Positions 57,833 through 63,747 of a stretch of 64,000 nucleotides of DNA are shown here, one piece after another. The translations under genes and the position numbers were made by a program. The stretch is taken from positions 62,001 through 126,000 of the forward strand of contig CANMXP010000004.1 in assembly GCA_947501845.1 (NCBI GenBank). Direction: 5' to 3'. Origin of the DNA: an uncultured Flavobacteriaceae bacterium (lineage in GTDB: Bacteria; Bacteroidota; Bacteroidia; Flavobacteriales; Flavobacteriaceae). Each line of letters starts with the position of its first letter. Position 1 is the first letter of the stretch. The notes beneath the pieces are model-generated. The model searched no databases. It was not told where the DNA came from and was given only the letters and a program-made list of their open reading frames with translations.

Positions 57833-58534
57833 TTAAGTTAACACAGTATATATAATACCTGTGGTGATTGCTATTCCAAAACTAATTAAAGTGCCTATTA
57901 AAATATACTCTGTAAGTTGTCTGTCTTTAGACTCTTTTAAATCTCCAAACCTGAAAACTGATTTTGCCGTAATTAAAAAACCAACAGCTTCCCAGTGGTT
58001 TAAAATTATAAATATAAACACTAAAACACGCTCTAAAATACCAATATATTTACCTGCATCCTTAAGGGATTCGTTATTTTTAGTAAGTTCTGAAATATTC
58101 CACTTTAAAAAAATGGTTTTCATAATTATAGACACTGGAATTGTTAAAAATGCTAGGCAAGTTAGTAGTAAAAGATTGTTTTCGGTTATGAGGGCCCCAA
58201 AATAAAATGCATCATTTGAATAGAAAAAGTAACATCCAAAGATTACTAAGACATGAAGTAATTGATCTATAAAAAATAATAATCGTTTTGTTTTTTTCTT
58301 TTGAAAAACAAGTTTTGCACCGTCAATTAGTAGATGCGTAATACCTATTGTTACTACGTAAGGCCATAGTGATATATCCCAAAGAAATACTATTAACAGC
58401 ACAATATGAATTAATATGTGTATATATAGTTTAGGTGATTTTAATTTTTTCTTTTCTTTTTCTTGAACCCATTTTTGAGGCTGTAGAAAAAAATCACCGA
58501 TTAAGTGAGCTAGTAAAAGTTTTAGTAATATCAT
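57833..58534 (-). CDS. DUF3307 integral membrane protein
   Basis: 233 residues, about seven spans. LLLAHLIGDFFLQPQKWVQE at the N-terminus and THLLIDGAKL (Asp) are DUF3307 signatures. Frequently paired with SatD-like genes, as here with a 4-bp ATGA overlap. Function unknown; the conserved Asp/His in spans 1 and 3 suggest ion or lipid handling. Confidence 0.88.
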   Translation of the reverse strand: MILLKLLLAHLIGDFFLQPQKWVQEKEKKKLKSPKLYIHILIHIVLLIVFLWDISLWPYVVTIGITHLLIDGAKLVFQKKKTKRLLFFIDQLLHVLVIFGCYFFYSNDAFYFGALITENNLLLLTCLAFLTIPVSIIMKTIFLKWNISELTKNNESLKDAGKYIGILERVLVFIFIILNHWEAVGFLITAKSVFRFGDLKESKDRQLTEYILIGTLISFGIAITTGIIYTVLT

Positions 58535-59160
58535 ATTAAAGCATTTATTTTTTTTCTGTACATAAGATCTAACTCCTTAATCTCGTCTAGGTGTGCTCTT
58601 TTTTGTCTGGTACTCACAGCATTTTGATTAATGCCCACGAACTTTCCCAGTTCGCTTTGCAATGCATCAGGTTTTTCTATGCTTAGTTTAACAATCTCTG
58701 CCAGATTTACGGTCCAGCTATCCATAGATATAAGTGCTAACTTAAAATATAAATTTAATGCTTCGTCAATTTCGAAACTGTTCGTCTTTATACGTAGGTT
58801 TTGTTTTTCTTTTTTCAAAGTTTCTAGTGTTTCTCCAGAAAATATAAACGCTTCGCCATTAGATTCTGTTACATTTTCTCCTTCGTAGGTTTTATTGCCA
58901 ATACCAATAGCTAAACGTACATCTAAACCATGAATGGCCTTTATACAAGCTTTTATATATATCGCAGCTATAAAGCTAGAATGAACATCTTTAATTTCTA
59001 TTTGAAAGCTATCTCCACGATATATCTCCCAATAAGTCTTGTCTGGACTTAAATAGGATAATGCACCTTTTAATGCTTTTATCCATATTTCTGGGTTTAC
59101 CTGACTTCTGGATTTGATAATATCACCTGTGATGACGCTTGTTATTATGTTTGGTATCAT
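58531..59160 (-). CDS. SatD-family protein with C-terminal helix-turn-helix
   Basis: 209 residues. The N-terminal domain (1-125) has ITGDIIKSRSQ, YWEIYRGDSFQIEI and VRLAIGIGNKTYEGENV, with a cyclase-like fold by pattern. The C-terminus, ALQSELGKFVGINQNAVSTR (166-185), is a clear HTH. Known family, named from the Streptococcus sat locus, function unknown. It begins 3 bp from an array of four dyads and is a natural candidate for their binder. Co-translated with DUF3307. Confidence 0.88.
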   Translation of the reverse strand: MIPNIITSVITGDIIKSRSQVNPEIWIKALKGALSYLSPDKTYWEIYRGDSFQIEIKDVHSSFIAAIYIKACIKAIHGLDVRLAIGIGNKTYEGENVTESNGEAFIFSGETLETLKKEKQNLRIKTNSFEIDEALNLYFKLALISMDSWTVNLAEIVKLSIEKPDALQSELGKFVGINQNAVSTRQKRAHLDEIKELDLMYRKKINALI

Positions 59161-59162
59161 TA

Positions 59163-59266
59163 TATCACGTTTTTATGCGATAAACAAATATATCACGTTT
59201 TTATGTGATAAACAAATATATCACGTTTTTATGTGATAATTTTAAATATCACACTATTGTGTGATA
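59163..59266 (-). promoter_or_regulatory. Four-dyad operator array with embedded promoter before satD
   Basis: Four 20-bp dyads TATCAC-N8-GTGATA at 59163-59182 (one mismatch, GCGATA), 59191-59210, 59219-59238 and 59247-59266, at an exact 28-bp period. On the minus strand the spacers give TATATTTG (59192-59185 and 59220-59213). TTTG of one unit lies 20 nt before TATATTTG of the next, a full Bacteroidota promoter, with a dyad filling the -33/-7 spacer. Confidence 0.85.
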
Positions 59267-59276
59267 AGTAAGCTAA

Positions 59277-60696: not shown

Positions 60697-61491
60697 TTAT
60701 TTCTTAACCCTAAAACTACCCGTTTTGTTGTCAAAAACTATTAAATCTTGGGGAAATAAATCGTTGAAAGTCCCTTTGTCTATTAAATTGCTTGGTTGCC
60801 CCGTAATAACAGTGTCTTTGGTCATAACAATCAATGTATCACATAATTGAATAGCCAAATCTATTTCATGAGAAGAAAATAAAATGGTTTTGTTTGTTTC
60901 CTTGGCTAAGTTCTGAAGCAGTTTTAAGATATAGGCTTTGTGATACATATCTAGATGCGTGGTAGGTTCATCTAGAATAATCAAATCGGTATCTTGCGCC
61001 AGGGCACGTGCTATCATAACTTTTTGCAATTGACCATCACTCAACTCATAGCATTTTTTGTGTTTTAAATCGTCAATATTGGTTTGAAATAAGGATTGGT
61101 TTATAACTTGAAGATCCTTACTTGTTAGACTTCCAACCCAATTGGTATACGGCTGACGTCCTAGTGCTACCAATTCAAAAACAGTAAGATTTTTTGAACC
61201 TAAAGATTCTGTAAGTACCAAACTTAATACTTTAGCTAAATTGATATTTGAATAATTCTCTAAAGAGGTATTATTAATGGTAATATTCCCATCAAGTTTA
61301 CGTTGCACACTAGTGAGTGTTCGTAGCAAGGTAGACTTTCCAATACCATTAGCTCCAATGAGTCCGACAAGCTCTCCTTTATGTAACTTAATATTTATGT
61401 TAGAGGCTATAACCGTTTTTTCTTTCTTACTAGTATAACCAATGGCTAAATCTTGAGTTTTTAGAACGATATGTGACTTGTTTTTTGTCAT
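60697..61491 (-). CDS. ABC transporter ATPase, FecE/BtuD type
   Basis: 264 residues. GANGIGKSTLLRTL (Walker A), LSDGQLQKVMIARALAQ (signature), LIILDEPTTHLD (Walker B), ILFSSHEI (H-loop His). Third gene of an importer for a metal chelate (siderophore, heme or cobalamin) with the permease at 61573 and the binding protein at 62605. The 81-bp gap to the permease gene shows no terminator. Confidence 0.94.
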   Translation of the reverse strand: MTKNKSHIVLKTQDLAIGYTSKKEKTVIASNINIKLHKGELVGLIGANGIGKSTLLRTLTSVQRKLDGNITINNTSLENYSNINLAKVLSLVLTESLGSKNLTVFELVALGRQPYTNWVGSLTSKDLQVINQSLFQTNIDDLKHKKCYELSDGQLQKVMIARALAQDTDLIILDEPTTHLDMYHKAYILKLLQNLAKETNKTILFSSHEIDLAIQLCDTLIVMTKDTVITGQPSNLIDKGTFNDLFPQDLIVFDNKTGSFRVKK

Positions 61492-61572
61492 AAATTACAA
61501 TAGAAGAACTCCACTTTCTAAATATTTACAGTATTAATTTTTTTGTATAATAGTTTTTATCTTTTGTCTATT

Positions 61573-62604
61573 TTAAAATATCATTTTACGTTTTCTAACT
61601 AATAACCAAATAATAACAGGTGCTCCAATTAAAGATGTTATGGCATTAATTGGTAGGGTAAGGTCGCTTGATGGTAATTGGGCAATGGTATCACAAACAA
61701 GCATAATAATGGCACCAAATAAAAAAACTGCTGGTAATAATATTTTATGGTTCGATGTGTTAAAAACTTGTCGAGTCATATGCGGAATAGCCAAGCCAAT
61801 AAAAACAATAGGCCCAGCAAAAGCTGTGATGGTTCCTGCTAATAAACTGGTGGCTATGATTATTAATAACCGACTCATTTTTACGTTCAATCCTAAACTT
61901 TTAGCATAGTTTTCTCCCAATAATAATGTATTTAATGTTTTAATAGAGGCTAAACTTAATATAATGCCTAGGATATAAATTATAAAAAATATAAATAACT
62001 CATGCCACGTAAGGTTACCAATACTACCAAAGCCCCAAAATATATATTGTTGTAATTCTTCAGCAGAACTAAAAAAAGAAAGTACACTAACTGTTGCCGT
62101 TGTAATACTACCAAACATTAAACCTATAATTAATATAGCCATGGTATCTCTAACTTTATTGGACATTATTAAAACAATAAGTAGCACTATAAAACTACCT
62201 AGGCTGGCAGCAATTACAATGCTCCACTTGGAAACAAGTACGCCAGCTAAAGCACCGCCAAAAAAGGAAGCGCCCATAATAACTAATGCGACTCCTAAAC
62301 TAGAACCAGATGTGATTCCTAAAACAAAAGGGCCGGCTAAGGGGTTTCTAAATAGTGTTTGCATGAGTAACCCAGAGATTCCCAAACCAGAACCAACAAT
62401 AATGGCTGTGAAAGCCTTTGGTAATCTGTATTCATGAATGATATGCTGCCAGGCTACATTTTCTGTTGGATGTCCAATTAGGCCATTAAAAACATCCTTA
62501 AAAGGGATAAGTACAGATCCTAAGCTTATGTTTGTACAGAAACATAGCAGTAGTACTAAAATTAGTATTATAAAAGGGAGTTTATATGTTTTGGTATCTG
62601 GCAA
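61573..62604 (-). CDS. FecCD/BtuC-type ABC permease
   Basis: 343 residues, about nine to ten spans. PLAGPFVLGITSGSSLGVAL, GLAIPHMTRQVF (coupling-helix region) and LPINAITSLIGAPVIIWLL are family signatures. Start TTG at 62604 directly abuts the TAG of the binding-protein gene, so translation is coupled. It moves a metal chelate or cobalamin across the inner membrane. Confidence 0.94.
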   Translation of the reverse strand: MPDTKTYKLPFIILILVLLLCFCTNISLGSVLIPFKDVFNGLIGHPTENVAWQHIIHEYRLPKAFTAIIVGSGLGISGLLMQTLFRNPLAGPFVLGITSGSSLGVALVIMGASFFGGALAGVLVSKWSIVIAASLGSFIVLLIVLIMSNKVRDTMAILIIGLMFGSITTATVSVLSFFSSAEELQQYIFWGFGSIGNLTWHELFIFFIIYILGIILSLASIKTLNTLLLGENYAKSLGLNVKMSRLLIIIATSLLAGTITAFAGPIVFIGLAIPHMTRQVFNTSNHKILLPAVFLFGAIIMLVCDTIAQLPSSDLTLPINAITSLIGAPVIIWLLVRKRKMIF

Positions 62605-63747
62605 CTATTCTAAGCGTTTAAAAAAGAAAGTTTCGTAATCATTTAATAAATCTGGATGGGCAATTTTTATCATGTCTTTTAAAATTAAGTCGGGTCTTAA
62701 AGAGCCTAATTCGTAATATAGCAATCCGCCTTTGGTACCTTTTCTTTTTGTGTAAGTATACACAGTGTTATTTTTATAGGCATTAAAAAGAGCGTAGCCC
62801 TTATGATTGTCTTGTATTTCCTTTTTTGTGTCAAAACTTCCAGCACCTATCCAAAATTCTGCATTTTGAGCCTTTTCCAATACATTTTCAAAGTTTAACT
62901 GTAAACTTCCAGTGCTATTATTATCTTTCCAAAGATAATCGGTATTTGCATCTTCTAAATATTTTGCAATAAAACTTTTCCCACCAGGAACATGCCATAC
63001 ATCCTTAAATGTAGAGCCAGACATGACCTTTGGCTTTCTGGTTGTTATTTTTGCCGCTTCTTTGGCTTTTAAGTAATCGGTTTCTATGGTTTTAAAAATA
63101 GAATCGGCTTCTTTTTCCTTATTATAAAAAGCAGCAATAAATTTTATCCATTCTGCCCTTCCTAAAGGATGTTGTTCAGTCCATGCCCCATCAATAACAA
63201 CTGGAATGCCTAATTTTTCTATTTGATCTAACTTTATGTTGACACCATTAACAGAAAAGCCAATGACCAGCTCTGGATTTAGTTCTAAAAGGGATTCAAT
63301 ATTGATCTCTAAATCGTTGCCTAAATCCTTAATGGCTCCATTATCCACCCTTGCTCTGGTTTTTTCTGAACAAATATATTTTGTATTAGGAAAACCGATT
63401 AAGCTATGGTCTACTTCTAAATATTCTAAAGCAGGGATGTTAGTCGTAGAAACAGCTACGAGGGTTTTAATAGGAATTTCTATTATTTTAGCATTAGTGT
63501 CAAGGTTTGGTAGTTTTCCATCTTTTTGTACTAAAAAATAGGTAAACGTTTTATTGCTATTTGGCCATGGGGAACTAACAATAACTTTTTTATAGCCTTT
63601 GTAATTCGTTATAGAAAAGCCTTTGGCATAACGGATGCTTTCTTCTATACCTTTTGATTCGTTTACAGAAGTGACTACGTGTTGCTTTTCTTCTTTACAA
63701 GATATAAGAAGTGTAGCGCATATTGCTAAAAGTATAAGAAATCGCAT
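62605..63747 (-). CDS. BtuF/FecB-type periplasmic-binding lipoprotein
   Basis: 380 residues. Lipobox LLISC (Cys17). IIEIPIKTLVAVSTTNIPAL, NPELVIGFSVNGV and LGIPVVIDGAWTEQHPLGRA are typical of the helical-backbone binding proteins for siderophores, heme and B12. First gene of the importer; no cobalamin riboswitch or other leader motif is recognised in the 190 bp upstream. The substrate cannot be decided from sequence. Confidence 0.92.
   Translation of the reverse strand: MRFLILLAICATLLISCKEEKQHVVTSVNESKGIEESIRYAKGFSITNYKGYKKVIVSSPWPNSNKTFTYFLVQKDGKLPNLDTNAKIIEIPIKTLVAVSTTNIPALEYLEVDHSLIGFPNTKYICSEKTRARVDNGAIKDLGNDLEINIESLLELNPELVIGFSVNGVNIKLDQIEKLGIPVVIDGAWTEQHPLGRAEWIKFIAAFYNKEKEADSIFKTIETDYLKAKEAAKITTRKPKVMSGSTFKDVWHVPGGKSFIAKYLEDANTDYLWKDNNSTGSLQLNFENVLEKAQNAEFWIGAGSFDTKKEIQDNHKGYALFNAYKNNTVYTYTKRKGTKGGLLYYELGSLRPDLILKDMIKIAHPDLLNDYETFFFKRLE

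Follow-up and report, generated by a model that had tools for sequence, protein, structure and literature searches.

A dyad array fused with the promoter of the satD-DUF3307 gene pair in an uncultured Flavobacteriaceae bacterium, and its probable reading by SatD

The satD locus

We analyzed a 64,000-nucleotide stretch of DNA from an uncultured Flavobacteriaceae bacterium (assembly GCA_947501845.1, contig CANMXP010000004.1, positions 62,001 to 126,000), called the window here. It contains satD, a second gene for a DUF3307 membrane protein, and an array of four palindromic dyads immediately upstream of satD. The features, in window positions, are as follows.

57833 to 58534, minus strand: gene for the DUF3307 membrane protein (PF11750, E = 1.5e-28); 4-bp overlap with satD
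58531 to 59160, minus strand: satD, 209 amino acids; a cyclase/GGDEF-like palm and a C-terminal helix-turn-helix, predicted from sequence and model
58597 to 58626, minus strand: codons 179 to 188, predicted recognition helix; one helix in the AlphaFold model; residues 180, 181, and 184 co-vary with the half-site
59011 to 59013, minus strand: Asp50 codon, second conserved aspartate, in the RGDSF turn; kept in 250 of 252 homologues
59122 to 59124, minus strand: Asp13 codon, first conserved metal-type aspartate; kept in 249 of 252 homologues
59163 to 59182, no strand: dyad 1, TATCAC-N8-GCGATA on the plus strand; lies over the predicted transcription start and 2 bp away from the satD ATG
59185 to 59192, minus strand: -7 box, TATATTTG; starts with the final two bases of dyad 2; read directly and scored, in a conserved register
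59191 to 59210, no strand: dyad 2, TATCAC-N8-GTGATA; fills the spacer between the -33 and -7 boxes
59213 to 59216, minus strand: -33 box, TTTG; within the linker that separates dyad 3 from dyad 2; read directly and by promoter scoring
59219 to 59238, no strand: dyad 3, TATCAC-N8-GTGATA; immediately upstream of the -33 box
59247 to 59266, no strand: dyad 4, TATCAC-N8-GTGATA; the copy furthest upstream

A motif scan of the window retrieved TATCAC-N8-GTGATA without mismatch at 59191, 59219, and 59247. The copy at 59163 reads TATCAC-N8-GCGATA and has one mismatch. All four starts are 28 bp apart, and the scan confirms the initial annotation in this respect. The satD ATG lies at 59160 to 59158 on the minus strand, and two bases (59161 and 59162) separate it from dyad 1. 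The window contained 10 matches to the dyad at up to two mismatches, against 2.78 expected, and none of 100 shuffles got to 10. In the 5.37-Mb genome, the exact dyads were the three array copies only. With one mismatch allowed, there were 20 forward matches, against 11 for the backward control. With 10.5 bp to the turn, a 28-bp step makes 2.67 turns, and neighboring dyads therefore do not lie on the same face of the helix. The dyads had also been called phased, which holds for the even spacing and fails for the helix face.

A sequence resembling a dyad with a 2-base loop, TATCACCTGTGATG, was found at 59121 to 59134, in the satD codons of the conserved ITGD motif. It is probably a by-product of the coding sequence.

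The consensus of Bacteroidota primary sigma promoters is TTTG, about 19 to 20 nt, and TAnnTTTG. The window contains a perfect match to it, with a -33 TTTG, a 20-nt spacer, and a -7 box of TATATTTG, and this promoter scored 10/10. Every linker between dyads was earlier said to form or nearly form a -7 box. On the minus strand this is true of two of the three, which read TATATTTG. The third (59239 to 59246) reads TTTAAAAT and has no -7 box, so there is one full promoter. Dyad 2 occupies its spacer and the predicted transcription start is inside dyad 1, both as originally described. Between the TTTG of the -33 box and the one within the -7 box the distance is also 28 bp, the period of the array, and each repeat can therefore renew both boxes.

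Conservation of the array

In the family, 108 of 199 genomes had a SatD homologue, and 112 of 395 genomes drawn from the phylum did. One locus was taken per family match, along with the best 80 of 583 relatives (the named loci) and 88 loci from the phylum search (30, and 58 further places from the 112 matching genomes). A set of 103 upstream regions was made from 108 loci, leaving out L044, L103, L104, L108, and L111 for unclear starts. It included L014 with a wrong start, later corrected, and L112 with a broken frame; alignment A1 is without both and has 101 rows. A set of 176 distinct homologues was made from 182 proteins minus six identical ones, with L112 left out. Dropping loci with fewer than two dyads or a score under 20 gave 166 loci for the co-variation, promoter, and tree analyses. 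From the 176-locus set onward, the site finder gave a bonus for the outer TAT and no favor to bases 4 to 6.

The 103 regions were scanned for three evenly spaced palindromes at 126 settings, with no sequence assumption and no TAT bonus. The best setting was a loop of 8 and a period of 28, with a mean of 14.5/18 against 11.4 across all settings. A dyad score of at least 14/18 was reached in 75 of the regions, against about 1.3 expected from base shuffles, which here and for the promoters preserve base content only. The best period was 28 in 160 of the 176 homologues and 29 in the other 16. Copy number varied between species from 1 to 6 scored dyads in these loci and up to 7 in held-out phylum loci.

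The promoter is conserved along with the array. A perfect -7 box with a good -33 box was present in 88 of the 166 loci, against 4.1% of shuffled upstreams. Good -7 boxes numbered 105, and 88 of them begin at one position relative to a dyad, which is the dyad's last two bases. The fusion of promoter and repeat noted in the initial annotation is thus real. The position of the array relative to the best-scoring promoter varies. It may cover the spacer and start, as in the window, cover the spacer only, lie mostly downstream, or end just before the -33 box. At many other loci the best promoter is at the upstream edge of the array, with several dyads at and downstream of the start.

In the genomes checked, exact dyads of the matching class occur almost exclusively in the satD array, and weaker sites elsewhere are possible. 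All 3 in the window's own genome were at satD, as were 5 of the 6 in a set of five relatives, one of which had no exact dyad (the backward control gave 1 place). Across six genomes, the count was 11 of 14. One of the three outside places in this six-genome set came from G016, which has no SatD match. The backward controls of this search gave 3 forward places in G016, 2 in G157, and 1 in G069.

Some arrays depart from the common form. The divergent SatDs L099, L102, L106, and L235 have TATAAG(T/C) half-sites with a period of 29 rather than 28, and L235 contains 7 dyad copies. L259, L260, L262, and L273 to L275 (family f18) encode SatD with Q/A/D at residues 180/181/184 and have no recognizable array upstream.

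Half-site variants

Read from the outside in, the half-site consists of TAT and three or four lineage-specific bases. The variants were TATCAC, found in the window's relatives, TATTCC/TATGCC, TATCG, TATCTG, TAT(T/A)AG, TATTAC, and TATATG. Dyad copies inside one array mostly agree. The check proposed earlier, for the TATCAC dyad upstream of homologues, found the array conserved but another half-site in most homologues. A search for TATCAC-N8-GTGATA alone would therefore give a false negative.

Mixed arrays of TATCAC-like and TATTCC-type dyads were found at 11 loci (L008, L009, L012, L121, L124, L125, L129, L136, L152, L163, and L164). In eight of them, the gene-proximal dyads fit the present helix class and the distal dyads fit the other class; the order was reversed in L012, L124, and L125. 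We read the mixed arrays as caught in transition; in the eight, the distal copies look like relics.

The two arms differ at position 4 in two classes. The D180/A181/K184 class has T on the left and G on the right in 39 of 87 dyads, against 10 with the reverse. The S180/A181/Q184 class has T on the left and A on the right in 31 of 70, against 7. This is a directional preference.

Co-variation with the recognition helix

Residues are numbered here with Met1 as 1. In alignments A1 and A2 and in the SatD model, the first position is residue 2 of this count, which makes their numbers one lower. Mutual information between SatD columns and half-site bases was calculated over the 166 loci, with close relatives down-weighted and column entropy corrected. 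Residue 184 had a z of 6.8. Residues 181 and 180 followed at 2.8, and the next was 152 at 2.7. With N-domain identity regressed out (189 columns), 184 ranked first (r = 0.48) and 181 second (r = 0.25). Residue 180 was fourth (r = 0.20), behind 198 (r = 0.21), and the columns below the first three averaged 0.015 with a standard deviation of 0.067.

A tree-pair test used a quick N-domain-only tree, all branches whether supported or not, and pairs on disjoint paths. Residues 184, 181, and 180 ranked first to third of 153 columns for the least similar sites. Site similarity was 0.39 in the 19 pairs differing at 184 (mean distance, 0.51) and 0.73 in the 54 pairs sharing it (mean distance, 0.42). 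Pairs at 40 to 50% N-domain identity gave 0.73 when all three residues agreed (n = 30), 0.55 when 184 agreed (n = 566), and 0.29 when 184 differed (n = 5,484). Distant SatDs converge on the same pairing of helix residue and half-site. The minimum numbers of changes on the N-domain tree were 37 for residue 184 and 59 for the base triplet.

The pairing can be written as a code. Beside A181, K184 is paired with TATTCC or TATGCC, or with TATAA where P180 is present (two loci); beside N181 it is paired with TATTAC, as R184 mostly is. E184 goes with TATCG beside T181 and with TATCTG or TATCTT beside N181. Q184 goes with TAT(T/A)AG or TATTA(G/T). T, M, N, S, or G at 184 with N180/A181 goes with TATCA or near it, and T184 with N181 goes with TATATG.

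The code was applied to the 88 phylum loci as a held-out set. Twelve were dropped (protein in training), and 42 of the 76 tested had a scored array. A residue set unseen in training was present in 18 of the 42, and 24 were left for prediction. Similarity to the predicted half-site was 0.79, where the mean over all 35 residue sets was 0.33, and the median rank was 2. The 10 loci less than 55% identical to any training protein gave 0.76 against 0.30, with a median rank of 1. Since the half-site co-varies with the helix residues and is predicted by them in held-out genomes, SatD itself almost certainly binds its own array. The reading of the array by SatD, raised in the initial annotation, gains strong support from residues 180, 181, and 184.

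The SatD protein

The AlphaFold model of SatD had a pLDDT of 96, and its N-domain has the GGDEF/class III cyclase palm fold. D13 and D50 are presumably the equivalents of the cyclase metal ligands, an assignment based on motif position rather than on superposition of ligands. No literal GG(D/E)EF is present. The window protein has RGDSF, and at residue 51 the homologues carry S in 174 cases and E in 66, out of 252. We know of no cyclase activity for SatD.

PF16264 matched 82 of 101 homologues at an E value of 0.1 or better (best, 3.3e-13), and sigma70 region 4 matched 54 of the 101. The window SatD matched no Pfam family at an E value of 1, PF16264 included. PF16264 had no match in the window's own genome in a search that also matched none of 14 controls. 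The PucR/CdaR models PF17853 and PF13556 were absent among the 25 listed of 76 Pfam families for the homologues, with the SatD model itself also missing the window protein. The A1 profile gave weak matches only to PDB sequences, nearly all in the helix-turn-helix part (best, HipB; E = 0.016). NCBIfam gave two matches far below the cut-off, HipB and GntR. Foldseek of the SatD model placed PDB 9f80 and 3onq as weak matches at ranks 45 and 46 (E about 0.1). The open literature searched yielded no paper on SatD function in Bacteroidota and none on DNA binding by SatD. One narrow search for work on operator/helix co-evolution found nothing and carries little weight.

The DUF3307 partner and neighboring genes

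A DUF3307 gene was present downstream of satD on the same strand at 259 of 264 loci, as judged with a profile built from the window DUF3307 protein. Twelve of the 264 loci duplicate the SatD protein of another locus in the count. The loci without a DUF3307 gene were L093, L097, L233, L251, and L279. The 4-bp overlap of the two genes was present in 63 of 74 named loci. This pairing is an association found here, outside the Pfam definition of the SatD family.

In 75 sequences of DUF3307, a helical membrane protein, 39 columns are invariant (alignment A3), many of them H and D. Its invariant residues include H10, D14, H39, H43, H67, D71, D90, and H94. These His and Asp residues look like the metal ligands of a membrane enzyme. 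The DUF3307 model had a pLDDT of 88 and no convincing match to PDB folds.

A phage collection contained no match, and plasmids gave three weak matches at 25 to 29% identity. On these grounds the reading of the pair as a mobile element was rejected. Elsewhere in the window, genes at 60697 to 63747 adjoining rmuC look, by eye, like an importer of the ABC type for a metal complex or vitamin (ATPase, permease, and binding protein).

Proposed mechanism and alternatives

The best explanation overall, and one that we hold with good though not full confidence, is that SatD regulates the satD-DUF3307 pair through the array. The pair would be a two-gene operon, with SatD as an autoregulator that binds DNA specifically at its own promoter. 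Each palindrome may be read by a SatD dimer through helix 179 to 188, with one helix per half-site. The outer TAT would anchor the site, and residues 180, 181, and 184 would choose bases 4 to 6. Because the array and the -33 and -7 boxes form one 28-bp unit, bound SatD would cover the spacer and the start. The layout in the window, with dyads over both, favors repression. We infer from this position that SatD likely represses its own operon, as was first suggested; the sign is the weakest step, and the part of the claim that names SatD as the reader has the co-variation behind it. The cooperativity and the copy-number tuning suggested along with it are conjectural. The cyclase-like palm with both aspartates could sense or convert a nucleotide and so set DNA binding. 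Nucleotide control of this kind is a tentative proposal from the model, with slightly less than an even chance.

Several observations weigh against this explanation. A 28-bp period is not a whole number of turns, which speaks against simple side-by-side cooperativity. No array was scored in 10 of the 176 loci and in 34 of the 76 held-out proteins. The common -7 register is partly built in, as the site finder prefers the outer TAT/ATA, which provides the TA of the -7 box. The place of the array relative to the promoter differs by clade, and the sign of regulation may differ with it. L012, L124, and L125 carry K184 yet retain gene-adjacent TATCAC dyads. A sign test on well-supported branches was underpowered, with 1 to 6 pairs per trait and no trait significant; where the site differed, it was mostly in the same direction, and the N181 test was uninformative. 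Among the 24 held-out proteins, 14 had 55% identity or more to some protein used in training. The residue set S/S/E accounts for 8 of the other 10, and its expectation came from two training loci.

SatD might instead bind the array as an activator, or activate in some clades and repress in others, which we regard as unlikely but the most serious of the alternatives. At 12 of the 15 loci with G180/N181/Q184 (L043, L045, L053, L056, L061, L062, L065, L067 to L069, L071, and L075), the array ends just before the -33 box, the core promoter is without dyads, and the -7 box starts 25 to 27 bases past the array end. The same offset occurs with other residues in L039, L049, L066, and L095. The remaining G180/N181/Q184 loci, L046, L059, and L083, have no such offset. 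In the window and its nearest relatives the dyads lie over the spacer and start, and the many loci with several dyads at and downstream of the start make activation hard to picture. A second alternative keeps the array as an operator and is compatible with autoregulation by SatD. The pair would resemble a toxin-antitoxin system, with SatD keeping a harmful membrane protein low. The near-strict pairing (259/264), the gene overlap, and the patchy presence (108 of 199 family genomes) fit this. PMC11323703 reports that satD of Streptococcus pyogenes is an accessory gene, present in 178 of 249 genomes, but essential in those strains that were tested. Such a pattern may be expected of a regulator restraining something harmful, and other readings of it are open. 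The lack of a phage match, the weak plasmid matches, and the 39 invariant DUF3307 columns, which are more enzyme-like, count on the other side, and we consider this alternative improbable.

Two further alternatives were rejected. Another regulator might bind the dyads, with SatD merely the regulated gene, given that SatD binding is predicted from sequence. Of all SatD columns, residue 184 is the one that the half-site follows most closely, and the helix predicts the half-site in held-out genomes. An unlinked regulator would not yield co-variation with SatD's own helix, so this is very improbable. The dyads might also be RNA hairpins in the leader, since their arms are complementary and one window dyad is likely transcribed. 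Dyads 2 to 4, three of the four, lie upstream of the predicted start. Position 4 is paired in only 43% of the 87 dyads of the D180/A181/K184 class and 37% of the 70 of the S180/A181/Q184 class, and arm mismatches there are usual in these two large classes. Hairpins have next to no probability.

Significance

The array in the window is one case of a conserved arrangement. Overall the system is a probable local autoregulator, whose co-evolution has left an unusually legible record. With one main target per genome, specificity can change without harm to other genes, and this may explain the frequent turnover of helix and half-site. More speculatively, and with rather less than even odds, SatD could be a self-contained one-protein circuit. 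Its palm would still bind and perhaps convert a nucleotide, its helix would read no promoter but its own, and SatD would control the metalloenzyme-like DUF3307 membrane protein. The single target would have freed operator and helix to change together dozens of times. If so, the loci would hold a readable natural amino-acid-to-base code, and the half-changed arrays would be fossils of its switches.

Autoregulation through DNA binding would be the first concrete role for the widespread, uncharacterized satD-DUF3307 pair, and the fold of SatD links the pair to nucleotide signaling. The loci provide a natural series of operators and recognition helices, in which three residues and three bases have changed many times and the genomes checked contain almost no further exact sites. 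This makes directly testable the long-standing question of how control is preserved while a regulator and its site co-evolve. The series is also a possible source of orthogonal regulators for Bacteroidota.

Comparison with known systems

SatD shares the predicted palm fold and both metal-type aspartates with GGDEF diguanylate cyclases, class III adenylyl cyclases, and GTP cyclohydrolase III. It differs from them in having RGDSF or RGDEF in place of GGDEF and a fused helix-turn-helix. Regulators of the PucR/CdaR type (e.g., MabR, Rv2242; PDB 9f80 and 3onq) likewise have a GGDEF-like domain followed by a C-terminal helix-turn-helix. PMC11617747 gives the catalytic motif of the MabR domain as lost (HGTWL), whereas SatD retains D13 and D50 in nearly all homologues. 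Streptococcus SatD (secretion and acid tolerance D, PF16264) shares its family model with 82 of the 101 homologues, and the window protein falls below it.

Lambda CI and many antitoxins are local autorepressors with operators inside their own promoters. The SatD array likewise consists of tandem palindromes over the promoter of its own operon, and few or no exact sites of its type occur elsewhere in the genome. Regulator and operator co-vary, as in an autorepressor with tandem operators. SatD differs from these systems in that its operator unit and its -33/-7 unit are both 28 bp, in a register that has stayed fixed through many changes of specificity.
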